Shown here: piece by piece, positions 1-9,399 of the stretch
How positions within the stretch are numbered: position 1 is the first letter of the stretch
How the letters are laid out: every line of letters begins with the position of its first letter
Source: Phycisphaerales bacterium PN19_bin_20
GTDB lineage: Bacteria > Planctomycetota > Phycisphaerae > Phycisphaerales > UBA1924
Reading direction: 5' to 3'
Length of the DNA: 64,000 nucleotides
Assembly: GCA_021173225.1 (NCBI GenBank)
Contig: JAJOLK010000006.1
Location: 1 to 64,000, forward strand
Notes under the pieces: model-generated
Database searches by the model: none
Told to the model about the DNA's origin: nothing
The model's input: only the letters and a program-made list of their open reading frames with translations
Position numbers and translations under genes: made by a program

Positions 1-355
1 CTCCCTTCCCCGCGACGAACACGCCGCGTTCGTGCTTCTTGAAGCGGGCGGCGGTGCCCTTGGCGGCGATCTCACGGATGATGGCGGCGTAGAGCGTGGC
101 CTCGGGCGTCTTGCCGCCGGGGCTGGTCCAGAGTTTCTTGGCCTCCATCGCGGCGATCATCTCCTTGGCCCGCATCGGCACCTCGCTGGCGGCGAGCACC
201 TGTGCGGCGGCGTCGAGGGCGCTGAGGCGTTTCATCGGCGCGGGCGTCGCCTCCTTGGCGGGCGGCGCGGCCTTCGCCGCCTTTCGGGACTTCCGTGCAT
301 CGCTCATCTCGCGATGCACCTTGCCCATGTTCTTAATCGTGCCTTTGCGTGCCAT
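1..355 (-). CDS. HARE-HTH domain-like protein, runs off the left edge
   Basis: Reverse-strand translation from ATG at 355: [118 protein letters not shown]. Resembles the HARE-HTH winged helix (LDAA..VL......M...E...A....LW...GKTP..TL.A.I..EI...G...RF). No stop before position 1. Not in the supplied ORF list because it is truncated. Confidence 0.65.
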
Positions 356-445: not shown

Positions 446-700
446 TCACTCGGCGTCGGCAAGAAAGGCTTCGACGTGCTCGGGGTCCATGTTGCTCATG
501 AACCCGGCGAGGTTGATCAGGTCCTCACGGACCTTCCCGAGGTCGCCCGCGTGGCCCCAGTTCCGCGGGTCGGCCTTCTGCTCCGTGTCGTGCTTGTCGA
601 GTTCCATCTGCAGCACGTCGAGCAGGCGGGCGATGTCGTTGCGGCGGGCGGCGTAGGTCTCGGCGGCGGTCGGTTCGGGCTTGGTCGTGCGCTTCGTCAT
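446..700 (-). CDS. Small hypothetical protein (84 aa)
   Basis: Complete ORF MTKRTTKPEPTAAETYAARRNDIARLLDVLQMELDKHDTEQKADPRNW...; AAGGAG Shine-Dalgarno-like sequence just upstream of the ATG on the minus strand. Confidence 0.65.
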   Translation of the reverse strand: MTKRTTKPEPTAAETYAARRNDIARLLDVLQMELDKHDTEQKADPRNWGHAGDLGKVREDLINLAGFMSNMDPEHVEAFLADAE

Positions 701-739: not shown

Positions 740-762
740 GAAGCCCGCATCACGCGGGCTTC
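740..762 (-). terminator. Perfect hairpin at the 3' end of the 761-1108 gene
   Basis: GAAGCCCGC (740-748) ATCAC GCGGGCTTC (754-762): 9-bp perfect stem, 5-nt loop, overlapping the stop region of the upstream minus-strand gene. Confidence 0.55.
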
Positions 763-1108
763 AGGTCGTCGGGTCGGTTGTGCGAGTCGTGCTCGGCCGG
801 GGCTTGGGTTGCCCGACCGCGTTCAGGTAGTCGATCAGGTCGCCCGCGTCCCAGGTGTCGTAATCCACCGGGTCGTGCTCGGTCGGTGCATCGTCGTGAT
901 CGCGGTCGATCTCGAACAGGCGGAACCCGCCCGGCGCTCCGGCCATCGGCCCCCAGTGCCCGTCGGCGTGGCGGCCGCGTCCGGCTGGGATCGTGTCGAT
1001 CGACCAGCAGCGGCCGTCGGGCGTCTGGACCTCGACGCTCCGCACCGCGAACCCGCGGCGTCCCAGCATCGTGGTCATCTCGATCGTGCTCTTCGTGGTG
1101 GCGTTCAT
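761..1108 (-). CDS. Small hypothetical protein
   Basis: Within ORF 761..1237. Start placed at MNATTKSTIEMTTMLGRRGFAVRSVEVQTPDGRCWSIDTIPAGRGRH... because GGAG lies a suitable distance upstream. The composition of ...DPVDYDTWDAGDLIDYLNAV looks like real coding. Confidence 0.5.
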   Translation of the reverse strand: MNATTKSTIEMTTMLGRRGFAVRSVEVQTPDGRCWSIDTIPAGRGRHADGHWGPMAGAPGGFRLFEIDRDHDDAPTEHDPVDYDTWDAGDLIDYLNAVGQPKPRPSTTRTTDPTT

Positions 1109-1572: not shown

Positions 1573-2454
1573 CTACCGAGTCTTGCTCATGCGCCCTTTG
1601 ATCCCCCAGCGCCCGAACGTGTGTTGAGCTCGCCGATGGGGTTGTACCAGGAGCGACTGAATGAACTTGGAAGTTGGAACATCTTCCTCGCTCTCGACTC
1701 GCCACGCCGTTCTGCAGAAGTGATTGTGGTAGTCCCGCATCCACACGAACTTTCGGCGTGCCCGCTCGTTGCGGGCGCTGTCCACCAACCCCTTCTGGAT
1801 CGCGTCCCTGTGCTTCTCCAGGACGGTCCAGTTGGTTCCCCCATCTTCCTCATTGGTCCATTCGAGGTAGTTGATGAACACAGCACCATCTCTCTTTGCG
1901 CGCCAGAAGTACGCCGTATGAGGGCAAAGGTCGGGCTTGGCGTAGTAGCGGACGTGTCGCGCGGCGTCGGATAGCACCTCATCTGAGACGACGATGCGCG
2001 GGTAAATCGCCCGCTTCGTTTCGAGTTCGTAGGCTTCGATCGCGCTCGGGCCGAACACCAGCCGCTCGCTAATATGCAAGTCGCCGAACGTCAATCCACC
2101 ACGAATCGGGAACCCGGCCAGCACGAGGCGAAGCTGGGCGTAGGCAATGTCCATCACCGGGAAGCCAAGATCGGCGTCGTCACCCCGATCGTCGGTAGGA
2201 GCACCAAGGAAGAGTCCATCAGAAATGAACTGGTACGACTGTGCGTTCTCGGCACTGTTGAACTGTTCCCCAAGGTCGTCCGAAACACCCTCGAAGAGGC
2301 CGTGAATCTGCTTGCACAGCGCGACCGTTGCCGCCTTGGTCTTGCAGGCTTGAATACGGTGGCGCAAGCCCAACAGGTCTGCGTAAACGCAGTACGAGGG
2401 GAGCACGAGGGGTTCGCCGGAACCGCTCATGTAGTGTTGTGGTGAGGTTGCCAT
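1573..2454 (-). CDS. Nucleotidyl-cyclase-fold-like (class III cyclase homology-like) protein
   Basis: 293 aa. Motifs YCVYADLLGL (first putative metal Asp), YQFISDGLFLGAP (second Asp), LAGFPIRGGLTFGDLHISERLVFGPSAIEAYELETKRAIYPRIVVS, matching the pattern of stand-alone divergent cyclase-like proteins (..D.LG.., SDS/SDG, RGG...G, VFGPA...AY.LE..A.YPRI.I). Confidence 0.55.
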   Translation of the reverse strand: MATSPQHYMSGSGEPLVLPSYCVYADLLGLRHRIQACKTKAATVALCKQIHGLFEGVSDDLGEQFNSAENAQSYQFISDGLFLGAPTDDRGDDADLGFPVMDIAYAQLRLVLAGFPIRGGLTFGDLHISERLVFGPSAIEAYELETKRAIYPRIVVSDEVLSDAARHVRYYAKPDLCPHTAYFWRAKRDGAVFINYLEWTNEEDGGTNWTVLEKHRDAIQKGLVDSARNERARRKFVWMRDYHNHFCRTAWRVESEEDVPTSKFIQSLLVQPHRRAQHTFGRWGIKGRMSKTR

Positions 2455-2673: not shown

Positions 2674-2715
2674 TTCCCAAGCTGAATGTCGCCAGTTCGA
2701 TCCTGGTCGCCCGCT
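2674..2715 (+). other. 3' half of a tRNA-Gly(CCC)-like gene, putative integration (att) remnant
   Basis: TTCCCAA anticodon loop (2674-2680), GCTGA 3' anticodon strand, GTC, T-arm GCCAG-TTCGATC-CTGGT (2691-2707), acceptor strand CGCCCGC (2708-2714) plus T. Upstream GGCCG does not pair with GCTGA, and no 5' half (GCGGGCG...) was seen, so homology starts at the anticodon loop. Confidence 0.65.
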
Positions 2716-2876
2716 TTCTAGTTTGATACTGGGCCGCCGATGTCACACGATGACACCGGCGGCTTTTCGTTGACAAACCCCGTTAAAATCGCGAGTTCTG
2801 GCGACGCGGCGGTGGCGGGCGGATTGATTCCAACAGCCGGACGATGACAGGGAATGACCTGGCTGGACGCTGGCCT

Positions 2877-2996
2877 GTGCGAGCGCGTGTGCAAGCGGGT
2901 ATGCAAGCGCAGGTGCGAGCGCGGGAGCAAGCGGGTGTGCAAGCGCAGGTGCGAGCGCGTGTGCAAGCGCGTGTGCAAGCGGGTGTGCAAGGTGTC
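2877..2996. repeat. Imperfect 12-bp tandem repeat array (about 9-10 units)
   Basis: Units GTGCGAGCGCGT / GTGCAAGCGGGT / ATGCAAGCGCAG / GTGCGAGCGCGG / GAGCAAGCGGGT / GTGCAAGCGCAG / GTGCGAGCGCGT / GTGCAAGCGCGT / GTGCAAGCGGGT / GTGCAAGGTGTC. Confidence 0.9.
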
Positions 2997-3186
2997 GCGG
3001 GATCGCGGTGCCGATCAGAGGGCGGCCAAACCCCGATCACCGCGTCCTCAATGCCACTCCTAGCGGCGAGTAGAATGATCCTGACGTCAATCGTCGGTCC
3101 AAGACACCGGCCGCCCTGGCGAACAATCACTCAGCGGGATCAATTGAGCCATCAATTTGGGACCCTAGACGCTATGGAGGCAATCT

Positions 3187-5085: not shown

Positions 5086-5436
5086 TCAGGAGCGGGCGGC
5101 GATCAGCGCGAGCCGTTCGACCTTGCCCAACGGCAGGTCCGGCAGGCTCGCCACCGCCCCGGCCACGTCGAGGAGTTTCGGGTCGGTGTAGACGTTGGCC
5201 GTGAGGCTCGGGTCGCTGTGCCGCATCGCGGCCTGCGCCGTCCGGAGCGGCACGCCAGCCTTCGAGAGGTGCGTCCCGAAGGTATGCCGAAGGGCATGAA
5301 CGTCGATTGTGCGGCCACGCTCGTCGGTCTTGACGACGACCTCCTTGCCGCCGCGTTTCTCTATGCGGGCCAGACCGGCGAAGACCAGGTCGCGATCGAA
5401 GATGCGGATGAGCCCCTCGGGCACCTCGAAGAGCGG
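5086..5436 (-). pseudogene. C-terminal fragment of a tyrosine recombinase/phage integrase
   Basis: ...VDVHALRHTFGTHLSKAGVPLRTAQAAMRHSDPSLTANVYTDPKLLDVAGAVASLPDLPLGK: HxxR, RH and catalytic Tyr boxes present; the N-terminal half including the first Arg box is missing. Part of ORF 5086..5670. Confidence 0.7.
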
Positions 5437-5561
5437 CTGATCGCTTCCGAGCGTCGCGGGGATCGGCTCGTCCGCCTGCGTGGCAGCGTTGGCAGCATTG
5501 CGCGCGGCCTGCTGCGGCGTGGGGGTGAGGGTGGGAGCGGGCTTGCGATTCGGCTCGTGCC

Positions 5562-5960
5562 AGCCCTGCGTGTTCGCGGGTTCGCCGCACTCAGCGGTTA
5601 CGGCCGCAACGGCGTCAGCAAACTCAATGCGCTCAAAGCCCTGCATCTCGATGCCGTGCGAGCGGTTCACTGTGTGTGTGGGGGGAGGGGCGGGGGCGGA
5701 AGCGGTGCTTCTCGAAATGCGGCTTGAGCGCCTCGAAGCGTCGCGTCAGGAAGTCATCGAACACGATATTGTGCCGCCCCACAATCGCGTTGTCCGCCCG
5801 GTTCTCGGCGAAGACTTACTTGCGAAACTATAGGGGGGCGGCCATCTTGAACTCGCACTACAGCAGGTAGACGGTGCTGAAGCCGAGGTAGTGCAAGAGG
5901 CGGAGTGCCGGGGGTGCGAGCACGACCGAGCGATAGACGGTGATGCCCACCCGCGCGCGT
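5562..5960 (-). pseudogene. Degraded gene remnant, possibly glycosyltransferase/DUF115-like
   Basis: Reverse-strand reading GITVYRSVVLAPPALRLLHYLGFSTVYLL*CEFKMAAPL*FRK*VFAENRADNAIVGRHNIVFDDFLTRRFEALKPHFEKHRF with in-frame stops, followed by FERIEFADAVAAVTAECGEPANTQGW in ORF 5086..5670. Confidence 0.35.
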
Positions 5961-6789
5961 GTTCGCAACCTTAGGGTCGTTGCCCAAATGCGGCATGTAA
6001 ATTGCAAGCGTTTCCAACGAGAATGGTTTCGCTTCGATGAAGCAGTACCTATTTCTTTGCTTTAGGCCTGCAACTACCTTTTGCCCCCGCCGTTACACCC
6101 GGAGTCGGCTCATAGCCGGTCCAGCATCTCTTGGACTTGGCCTTGCCAACTCCTGCCTTTTTTGTTTTCTTTTTCGTAGCCATACCCGCGAGAATAGCGA
6201 TGAGCGGTCGGCTGAGAGCCGAATTTCTTGAAAAGCCGTGCGTAAGCAGGCTGAATTGACTTATTCTAAGATCTTGTTCCCGAGCAAATATGCTTTATAC
6301 TTACGGTTCGAATGCTCACCAATGCCTCGGTCGGACTATGCCGACCCACCAAAGGTACCGGGGGGGGGTTTCGGACAGCCGTGGGCACCGAAGGTCCTGA
6401 GCAGCTCACGGTCGGCTGCGGCAAACCGGCTTCCTTGGCCTCTCGGGTGACACTGCAGTAGTGAGCGGCTAGCTAGAAGTAGTAAAGATGATGGTGGTTC
6501 AGTGAGCGTGGCACGCTAAAGTTCGGCGGATCGTGGGCAGATAGTGCCTTTGGTCAACCAAGGCTATCGGCGACGGTCTGGCGAGGGCCTTTGGACTATG
6601 AACCGACGTGAACTCTCGCACACGTTGCACGTCGCTTCACCTGACCGCGGCGGGTAGGCCGCCGTGCTAACGGCGGGACCAAGGTATTACTTGGCGGAGC
6701 CAACGGAAAGTGCGTGATCGAGCGGCGTTGGTCGATGCCGGTCGCGGGGGTGATCGCGACGGTCCATACGTTTTCAAGGAGTGGGTAGC

Positions 6790-9399
6790 ATGAGCAGTGC
6801 GCTCGTTGGGATAACAGGCCCGTCACACGCGGGTGCAGCCGCCGGAGGGCCTAGCGGGATGCATAAGGATTTTCTCGACAGACTCAACGCGATTGCTCGA
6901 TCTCCGCTGCTGCTAGTGGCCTCTGACTATGACGGGACTTTGGCGGAGATTGTCCTCGACCCCGCGGTTGCCTTGCCGAACGCGGACGCGCTCAAGGGCC
7001 TGCTGGCGATTGGTGAAGTGCCTTGGACGAGCACCGCGATTGTTTCAGGTCGATCGGCCGTCGATCTTGCCAGGTTTCTCGGTCCGTTTCGCCCTGATTA
7101 CACCGTCGGCTCGCACGGGGCGGAGTGGCAGGATGCCGGCGTGACACTCAACACCGACGAGCGGGATCGGCTGGTTCAAGTCACCTGCAAGATCGCCGCG
7201 GTCGTCAAGCGCTGGCCCGGGCTGAGGTATGAGCTCAAGCCCGCCGGTGTTGCGTTGCACGTCCGCGCGGCCGACCCCGCGGTGGCGACACAGGCGATCG
7301 AATCGGCGATGGAACTCTGCGGATCGATGCCGAGTGTCCACATCCGTCACGGCAGCCAAGTCGTCGAGTTTATGGTCGTCGCCGCGAACAAGGGTGACGC
7401 CGTCCGTCGTGCTCGGCACGCTTCCGGCGCGACGGGCGTGATCTTCATCGGCGATGACCTGACCGACGAGGATGTGTTCAAAGGTTTGATGGCCGAGGAC
7501 CTTGGGATCAAGGTTGGAGAGGGCGAGACCGCGGCGCGGCATCGTGTCAGCGGCGTTCCCGACGTGGCGGAGATCCTGCAGCTGGTCGCGTCAATCCGGG
7601 ATGATTGGGCAAAGTCGCGATGGCTGGTACGGCTCGACTCGTGCGCGGTGCTGTCCGATCAGCGGACGGCCGCGGTCGTCTCGCCAGGGGCGCGCATCTC
7701 GTGGCTGTGTCTGCCTCGATTGGACTCCGCCGCCTTGTTCGCTGAGCTTGTGGGCGATTCGACGGCGGGCATGTTTGAGATCGCCCCTGCCGAGGGCGGC
7801 GCGCCGAGTCGCTGCGGGTATGACGGTGATTCGTTCGTCCTCGTGACCGAGTGGCCGGGGCTGCGTGTGACGGACTATTTGGATGGCTCTGCCGGGAGAG
7901 CATTTCAGAAGGCGGGGAGGGCCGATCTGATCCGCGTGATCGAAGGCACGACACCCGCTCGCATCCGCTTTGCGCCACGGCTGGATTACGGCCGCATCGC
8001 GACGCAACTGCGAGCCCGAGAGGATGGGCTGGAAATCGAAGGATCCAACGATCCGGTCGTCCTTCGCTCCAGCGGCGTTACGTGGACTATTTCGAGCGAG
8101 GGCGTTCACCATACTGCCGAGGCGGTCATCCAGCCCGCGTTGGGAGCGGTGGTTCTCGAACTTCGATACGGCACCGCGAATCTCGCTGCGAATATCGAGG
8201 GCGAACCGGAGCGTCGCGACCAGAACCGACGGTTCTGGTCAGGCTGGGCGAGCTCTCTTAAGCTGCCGTCGAGATGCCCAGAGCTGGTCAAGCGCAGCGC
8301 CTTGGTGCTCAAGGCGCTTTGTTACGGGCCGACGGGCGTGATCGCCGCCGCCGCGACGACCAGTCTTCCCGAGCTGATCGGAGGTACTCGCAACTGGGAC
8401 TATCGATACTGCTGGCCGCGGGATGCGGCCAAGGCCGCGGCCTCGCTGGTTCGGTTGGGCAACACCGGGCACGCTATGAAGTTCCTCGACTGGATGCTCG
8501 AAGTCGTGGATGGCTGCGAGACTCCTGAGCGGCTCCACCCGATCTACACGCTCTCGGGCAGCCACTTGCCGCCAGAAGCCGAGCTGGGACACCTAAGCGG
8601 ATTCGGGCTGAGCCGACCCGTGCGGATTGGAAACGCGGCGGCGAACCAGGTGCAGCTCGATGTCTTCGGACCGATCGTACAACTGGTTGCGCTCCTGGCA
8701 GGGCGTGGTGCTCCGATAGCACCTGACCACTGGCGGCTGACGCGCGCCATGGTGCGAGCGGTTGCGGCCCGGTGGTCCGAGCCCGACCACGGCATTTGGG
8801 AGATGCGACTGGAACGACGGCATCACGTCCATTCCAAGGTCATGTGCTGGCACACCGTGGATCAGGCCCTTGTTGTAGAACAAGCGGTGTGTGGCACACA
8901 GAATGCTGACTGGATAGCACTTCGCGACACTATCCGAGAGGATGTCCTTGCTCACGGATGGAACTCGGCCGAGAGCGCATTCACCGGCGCCTATGGACAG
9001 TCTTATCCCGACGCGGCTGTGCTCAGCATTGGGCTTAGCGGGTTGCTGCACCCCAGTGATCCGCGATGGGCTTTGACCGTCGAGTTCATCGCCAAGCGAC
9101 TACGCGACGGGCCGACGGTGCGGCGCTATGACGTCGACGACGGTCTCGGTGGCGGCGAGGGCGGCATGCACATCTGTACGGGCTGGCTCATCGAGTCGTT
9201 CCTTACACTGGGACGCGTGGATGAGGCGGTTCAACTCTTCGACGACTTCGCTAGCCTGTTTCGAGGTCCCGGCATTCTCACCGAACAGTTTGACCCGCAG
9301 ACTGGACTCGCGGTCGGGAACCTCGCGCAGGCGTATTCCCACTTGGCCTTCATCGATGCGGCGGTCGCCCTTGATCGAGCCCGTTCGCAAACACCGTAG
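6790..9399 (+). CDS. Trehalose-phosphatase fused to a GH15 (glucoamylase/trehalase-like) domain
   Basis: HAD motif SDYDGTLAEI and GDDLTDEDVF (OtsB-like) at the N-terminus; then GH15 features SLPELIGGTRNWDYRYCWPRDAAKAAASLVRLGNTGHAMKFLDWML, GFGLSRPVRIGNAAANQVQLD, HGIWEMR, HSKVMCWHTVDQAL. ATG at 6790 preceded by AAGGAG. Confidence 0.88.
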   Translation: MSSALVGITGPSHAGAAAGGPSGMHKDFLDRLNAIARSPLLLVASDYDGTLAEIVLDPAVALPNADALKGLLAIGEVPWTSTAIVSGRSAVDLARFLGPFRPDYTVGSHGAEWQDAGVTLNTDERDRLVQVTCKIAAVVKRWPGLRYELKPAGVALHVRAADPAVATQAIESAMELCGSMPSVHIRHGSQVVEFMVVAANKGDAVRRARHASGATGVIFIGDDLTDEDVFKGLMAEDLGIKVGEGETAARHRVSGVPDVAEILQLVASIRDDWAKSRWLVRLDSCAVLSDQRTAAVVSPGARISWLCLPRLDSAALFAELVGDSTAGMFEIAPAEGGAPSRCGYDGDSFVLVTEWPGLRVTDYLDGSAGRAFQKAGRADLIRVIEGTTPARIRFAPRLDYGRIATQLRAREDGLEIEGSNDPVVLRSSGVTWTISSEGVHHTAEAVIQPALGAVVLELRYGTANLAANIEGEPERRDQNRRFWSGWASSLKLPSRCPELVKRSALVLKALCYGPTGVIAAAATTSLPELIGGTRNWDYRYCWPRDAAKAAASLVRLGNTGHAMKFLDWMLEVVDGCETPERLHPIYTLSGSHLPPEAELGHLSGFGLSRPVRIGNAAANQVQLDVFGPIVQLVALLAGRGAPIAPDHWRLTRAMVRAVAARWSEPDHGIWEMRLERRHHVHSKVMCWHTVDQALVVEQAVCGTQNADWIALRDTIREDVLAHGWNSAESAFTGAYGQSYPDAAVLSIGLSGLLHPSDPRWALTVEFIAKRLRDGPTVRRYDVDDGLGGGEGGMHICTGWLIESFLTLGRVDEAVQLFDDFASLFRGPGILTEQFDPQTGLAVGNLAQAYSHLAFIDAAVALDRARSQTP

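Follow-up and report, generated by a model that had tools for sequence, protein, structure and literature searches.

A mobile family of predicted class III nucleotidyl-cyclase-fold proteins that keeps the metal-type Asp residues and largely lacks the canonical cyclisation residues

Background

In homodimers of class III nucleotidyl cyclases one protomer contributes the metal Asp residues and the other the base and transition-state residues, and Pycsar, which uses a cyclase of this type, requires a receptor. The PycC enzymes carry the two metal Asp of the class III fold, and their base-recognition residues differ among PycC clades (PMC11224242). Other bacterial class III-like families, for example DUF2652, have also exchanged the transition-state Asn for a hydrophobic residue (PMC4886424).

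The gene described here lies in the window, the whole stretch of 64,000 nucleotides with which contig C17 of a genome of 3.1 Mb in 59 contigs begins. The original prediction, made from the letters of the window, had proposed a stand-alone protein of divergent class III cyclase fold, encoded inside an integrated element with no effector beside it, which might be a signalling or defence cyclase comparable to PycC. The features of the locus are collected in Table 1.

Table 1. Features at the left end of the window, with positions in the window (residue numbers in the last line)
Feature	Position	Strand	Evidence and remarks
HARE-HTH domain protein, truncated by the contig start (118 aa visible)	2..355	(-)	Pfam PF05066, E 4e-8
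84-aa ORF, phage-type protein	446..700	(-)	phrog_14596, E 1.3e-6
Small ORF, 115 aa (158 aa with longer start, to 1237)	761..1108	(-)	element cargo, no recognised family
Stand-alone protein of predicted class III nucleotidyl-cyclase fold	1573..2454	(-)	ORF, profile match, AlphaFold2, Foldseek, conservation, GC
Right att repeat: 3' part of tRNA-Gly(CCC) and downstream terminator	2674..2761	(+)	88 bp, one mismatch, compared with L062
Key residues of the 293-aa protein	D26, D79 (metal-type Asp); R118; E145; K235

Results

The gene and the integrated element

The ORF check gave a frame of 293 aa with an ATG start, in which all the motifs that had been quoted for it are present: YADLLGL (D26), FISDGLFLG (D79), RGGLTFG (R118 to G124) and VFGPSAIEAYELE..AIYPRIVV. 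These motifs are not due to chance, since relatives are encoded in 45 plasmid records, 42 loci of species genomes and four viral contigs. The ORF has no sensor domain, as had been noted, and all full-length relatives measure 241-386 aa. The GC content of the gene (59.3%, against 66.2% for the window) is among the lowest 2.2% of the 882-bp stretches.

The att site that had been suspected near the gene proved to be real. It is a duplication of part of a tRNA-Gly(CCC), identical at 87 of 88 bp to the intact tRNA-Gly(CCC) region of the same genome (G000:C49:221964-222035), whose contig terminates 46 bp past the tRNA gene. The two copies are oriented alike, in keeping with the left and right ends of a tRNA-integrated element. 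The gene does lie inside such an element, and no other gene is recognised between it and the right att repeat, from which its start is about 220 bp away. As the window starts where the contig starts, the element extends beyond the left end of the contig. For an empty-site comparison within the genus, genome G003 has the tRNA-Gly, in surroundings that are not syntenic with the element site. The first 12 kb of the window gave no Rfam match.

The two small neighbours of the gene were considered as partners and rejected: the co-occurrence that had been suggested for the 84-aa and 116-aa neighbours was not borne out, as no homologue of either protein (446-700 and 761-1108) was found at the locus of any relative.

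Some further observations concern the surroundings. Beyond the att repeat there is the C-terminal piece of a tyrosine recombinase (194 aa, 5086-5670, minus strand), probably the relic of a separate integration. A short array of a degenerate 12-bp repeat (about GTGCAAGCGCGT) occupies 2861-3020, between the att repeat and a DUF4914 gene, and one more, incomplete copy lies on the other side of the att repeat, inside the element (2593-2615). Moreover, an 872-aa ORF (6781-9399, plus strand) can be read by eye as the fusion of a trehalose-phosphatase-type part with a glycoside-hydrolase-15-type part.

Fold

Single-chain AlphaFold2 predictions were obtained for the window protein (pLDDT 83.4, pTM 0.83) and for a relative from Paenibacillus (pLDDT 92.9, pTM 0.90), and the cyclase palm fold is predicted in both. 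When these models were compared with the PDB by Foldseek, the best 50 matches of each were class III cyclases or class III-like proteins, including the ATP-binding class III cyclase-like protein 6yii, and no GGDEF or Cas10 structure was among them. With modest TM-scores, 0.68 at best by target length, the relation to class III cyclases is clear but distant. In addition, the profile of the family matches the catalytic domain of mycobacterial Rv1625c (1yk9) with an E-value of 6e-5, and an HMM-HMM alignment of it with class III cyclases from the host phylum has an E-value of 1e-5. On the models and profiles together the family almost certainly has the class III nucleotidyl-cyclase fold, in agreement with the divergent class III layout first recognised in the motifs. 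No canonical class III cyclase was found in the host genome.

Active site

Conservation was counted in 59 non-redundant members (<70% identity), and the transition-state positions were placed by alignment to class III cyclases (profile match and HMM-HMM). The two metal-type Asp, which align with those of class III cyclases, are conserved throughout (D26 in 58/58, D79 in 59/59), so the alignment of homologues showed no loss of these residues. Conserved as well are R118 (59/59), G135 (58/59), E145 (55/59), P152 (54/59), K235 (53/59) and R153 (50/59). The alignment of base-recognition residues turned out against a canonical cyclase: the base Lys (position 75) is Lys in only 8/59 members and position 132, that of the base Asp/Thr, is mostly I, P, V or A. 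Moreover, the transition-state Asn (position 139) is found in none of the 59 members and the transition-state Arg (position 143) in four.

As the metal Asp are kept and the residues of the other protomer are gone, the family retains the metal half of the site and has lost the other half. This half-site is compatible either with an altered chemistry that relies on invariant residues of the family itself or with a protein that binds an NTP and does not cyclise it, but not with a canonical homodimeric cyclase.

Distribution of the family

Members were found in at least seven phyla, namely Pseudomonadota, Bacillota, Bacteroidota, Actinomycetota, Thermodesulfobacteriota, Nitrospinota and Ca. Auribacterota together with the host phylum. 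In the latter 16 of 294 genomes carry one (a prevalence of about 5%), and the three further genomes sampled from the host genus lack the family. The maximum-likelihood tree places the window protein in a supported set of 12 members that includes Bacillota plasmids, Lysobacter, Ensifer, Cupriavidus, a Desulfobacterales MAG and a prophage. On this tree the label of the host phylum has to change three times or more, which shows that cross-phylum transfer is common.

The window protein has no match in Pfam, NCBIfam or PADLOC. PADLOC 2.0.0, which presumably contains the Pycsar models, gave 0 families for it at E<=1, and 46 members compared with its models gave a best E-value of 0.007 and no consistent match. 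The PHROG family phrog_23933 matches the protein (E 2e-16, residues 22-249) and phrog_21097 does so weakly, while a tblastn search with three members against 50,697 phage records gave no match. No published description of the family, of the half-site or of the lone-cassette lifestyle was found in the open-access literature, the search having covered few subscription papers. The fold is known; the family, as had been supposed, the half-site and the lone-cassette lifestyle appear to be new within that literature.

Mobility of the single gene

Loci in Sulfuritalea (L038:376-1493) and Thiobacillus (L042:7690-8807) have a segment of 1118 bp in common, 97.9% identical between unrelated flanks, which contains only the family gene with 14 bp before and 63 bp after it. 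It starts with GTTAGGC and ends with ...GAACG, the stop codon overlaps GCCT(A/G)AC, and the homology ends exactly at the G expected for a G^TTRRRY boundary. When circularised, the end of the segment folds to an attC-like hairpin of 72 nt (-47 kcal/mol), with perfect R''/R' pairing in the Thiobacillus locus, where a second attC (78 bp, -31 kcal/mol) lies directly upstream. Judged by these sequence features the segment is an integron gene cassette, and its near-identity at the two loci points to recent transfer between bacterial families. The cassette claim is limited to these two loci and is set by the exact ends of the homology, since a general attC scan of all loci did not tell real from shuffled DNA, hits being equally numerous in both. 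Integron cassettes have reportedly been treated, in work of 2024-2025, as libraries of phage defence, and this cassette therefore offers itself as a test case.

Another pair of loci (L003 and L014) has exactly the family gene in common (841 bp, 79.7%), with nothing shared beyond it. As the unit moves alone, it must function alone or rely on something present in most hosts. The vehicles and sites observed are plasmid cargo, prophage morons, the gap between hsdM and hsdS, the vicinity of restriction-modification (RM) loci, the integron cassette and the tRNA-integrated element. That the family is a mobile accessory gene is practically beyond doubt.

Gene neighbourhoods

No partner or effector gene recurs across 73 loci and none lies in the window, PycTM and PycTIR effectors included; the original statements that no effector is adjacent and that the protein stands alone are supported. 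Neighbours recur only where replicons are related, as with repABC in Rhizobiales and a Dcm/Mza locus in Rhizobiaceae.

Among 126 neighbour proteins Pfam recognised three HsdM, three C5 methylases, three Mrr_cat, two AbiEii, two TIR and one DpnI, counts that are not all independent because three Rhizobiaceae loci (L030, L031 and L049) represent one related locus. For Mrr_cat, 54 occurrences in 59 genomes of the host phylum, the only source of the background, correspond to about 0.03 expected per 126 genes if about 4,000-4,500 genes per genome are assumed (an estimate). The family gene is placed between hsdM and hsdS of a type I RM system in L087 and adjoins type I RM operons in L027 and L044. 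In L031 (723-8705) it overlaps a Dcm methyltransferase gene that is divergent from MzaB, MzaC and MzaE, and L049 is syntenic with this locus (67% over 8 kb); the gene could possibly be an additional Mza component in Rhizobiaceae. Other neighbours are an N6_N4 methylase (L095), a Dcm-Vsr-HATPase set (L056), an MmeI-type enzyme with a SIR2-like protein (L093), Mrr (L084) and AbiEii (L010 and L046). Two members occupy moron positions, one between a Q-like antiterminator and an endolysin (L057) and one after tail genes (L055).

Many members adjoin ordinary genes (hisA, neuB, repABC, transport), and the link with defence is therefore a statistical one. On six Rhizobiales replicons (L023, L025, L028, L032, L037 and L011) the gene lies, almost constantly, just downstream of repABC; a role of these members in the competition or maintenance of replicons is possible. 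A close relative located in a prophage has a TIR-domain gene (L054:6149-6961) upstream of it, two genes away, which other members do not share.

Discussion

The reading that we prefer is that of a self-contained accessory protein that binds a metal-nucleotide complex, is probably enzymatic and takes part in the conflict of mobile elements with their hosts; to this reading we give a probability of about 0.45. From the computed features, which are the fold, the metal-type Asp, the lost cyclisation residues, the mobility as a single gene and the conflict-rich context, we infer a mechanism, a product and a direction of the conflict as follows. The protein would bind an NTP through Mg or Mn at D26 and D79, and the reaction would be aided by the candidate invariants R118, R153 and K235 in place of the canonical residues of a partner protomer. 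A nucleotide would then be made or consumed by this protein alone, without a co-inherited receptor, so that it might act as a self-contained effector in conflicts of the host with phages or plasmids. A role in conflict, be it defence or counter-defence, is likely, and given such a role defence seems the likelier direction of the two. The protein may well be a catalytically active nucleotidyl enzyme; against this, the class III cyclisation residues are absent and it could be catalytically dead. A more specific version, in which the family consists of single-protein anti-phage or anti-element enzymes that use the metal half-site and residues of their own to make or destroy a nucleotide, with no receptor, and that are spread as lone cassettes by integrons, plasmids, prophages and tRNA-integrated elements, is put forward tentatively and is doubtful as a whole.

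If the protein is dead as an enzyme it might still bind a metal-NTP complex without turnover, the binding serving to switch its contact with a methyltransferase or with a replication or transcription factor. The loss of the transition-state Asn and Arg and of the base Lys would be explained by such a pseudo-cyclase, as would the ATP-binding 6yii among the structural matches and the operon coupling to several methyltransferases. Nevertheless dead enzymes usually lose the metal Asp, and the invariance of both in 59 very divergent members argues for a retained metal/NTP chemistry; in addition the neighbourhoods offer no common binding partner, and we consider this explanation unlikely. The coupling to methyltransferases could also mean that the protein shields a plasmid, phage or integrated element from host defence, restriction for example, or from rivals, and the position next to repABC on rhizobial plasmids, the members on conjugative and mobilizable plasmids and the moron slots of prophages would all suit this role in counter-defence or element maintenance. 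However, members are also found within complete RM operons, in chromosomal defence islands and in an integron cassette, where an anti-restriction role makes little sense, and this account is quite unlikely.

The Pycsar comparison of the original prediction fares less well. A true Pycsar-like enzyme, or another cyclase of cyclic mononucleotides, might have its receptor encoded elsewhere in the genome; the class III fold with both metal Asp is that of PycC, and base-recognition residues already vary between PycC clades (PMC11224242). Nevertheless none of the 46 members has a convincing PADLOC match, no recurrent TM or TIR partner or other conserved partner exists among the loci, the gene is transferred precisely on its own and the Asn and Arg of the cyclisation step are missing, all of which makes a cyclase of this type improbable. 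The cyclase fold of the signalling or defence cyclase first proposed stands, while "signalling cyclase" becomes a possibility among others, as the base and cyclisation residues are missing. A housekeeping signalling cyclase of the host, which the ordinary genes beside some chromosomal relatives might suggest, is refuted by distribution and mobility: the gene is patchy (16/294, and not in the rest of the genus sampled), mobile, low in GC and inside an integrated element, and the relatives too are accessory and patchy. We regard it as extremely improbable.

The self-contained conflict protein is of interest because the family is abundant and mobile, yet nameless in Pfam, NCBIfam and PADLOC. Should the protein prove active, it would show that the class III fold can work with the metal half only, free of a receptor and outside the cAMP/cGMP/cUMP scheme. 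Moreover, the cassette defines the minimal unit as one gene, which can be cloned and directly tested for phage defence.

Comparison with known systems

The protein matches phrog_23933, a PHROG family of unknown function. The mCpol/Panoptes enzymes, miniature Cas10 palm proteins, are reportedly also palm-type nucleotide enzymes that stand alone in a defence context (PMC12657218, PMC12657230). The present family differs from them in that its predicted structure matches class III proteins and neither Cas10 nor GGDEF, no GG(D/E)D motif is found in its conserved columns and no effector is adjacent.

DUF2652 (PF10851) is closer, as it also consists of small cytosolic single-domain class III-like proteins in which Asn is replaced by a hydrophobic residue; it keeps, however, the Arg and the Lys-Glu base pair (PMC4886424), which the present family does not. 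No PF10851 match was obtained for the window protein (E<=1) or for 11 members (E<=0.1). PycC resembles the family in its stand-alone class III-type fold, its two metal Asp and its mobile and defence-rich context, whereas the family has no PycTM- or PycTIR-type partner and no PADLOC match and moves as a single gene.

Class III cyclases themselves (PF00211; Rv1625c 1yk9/4p2f, Ma1120, sGC) are alike in fold, in the order of the motifs and in the two metal Asp, and they also share with the family the R-x-G...G strand, the FG loop and the Glu of the ARLE helix. The family departs from them in that the transition-state Asn is always hydrophobic or another residue, the Arg is variable and the base Lys/Asp are not conserved. 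It lies below the detection of Pfam and has features of its own, namely the new invariants P152-R153 and a helical C-terminal part that carries K235.
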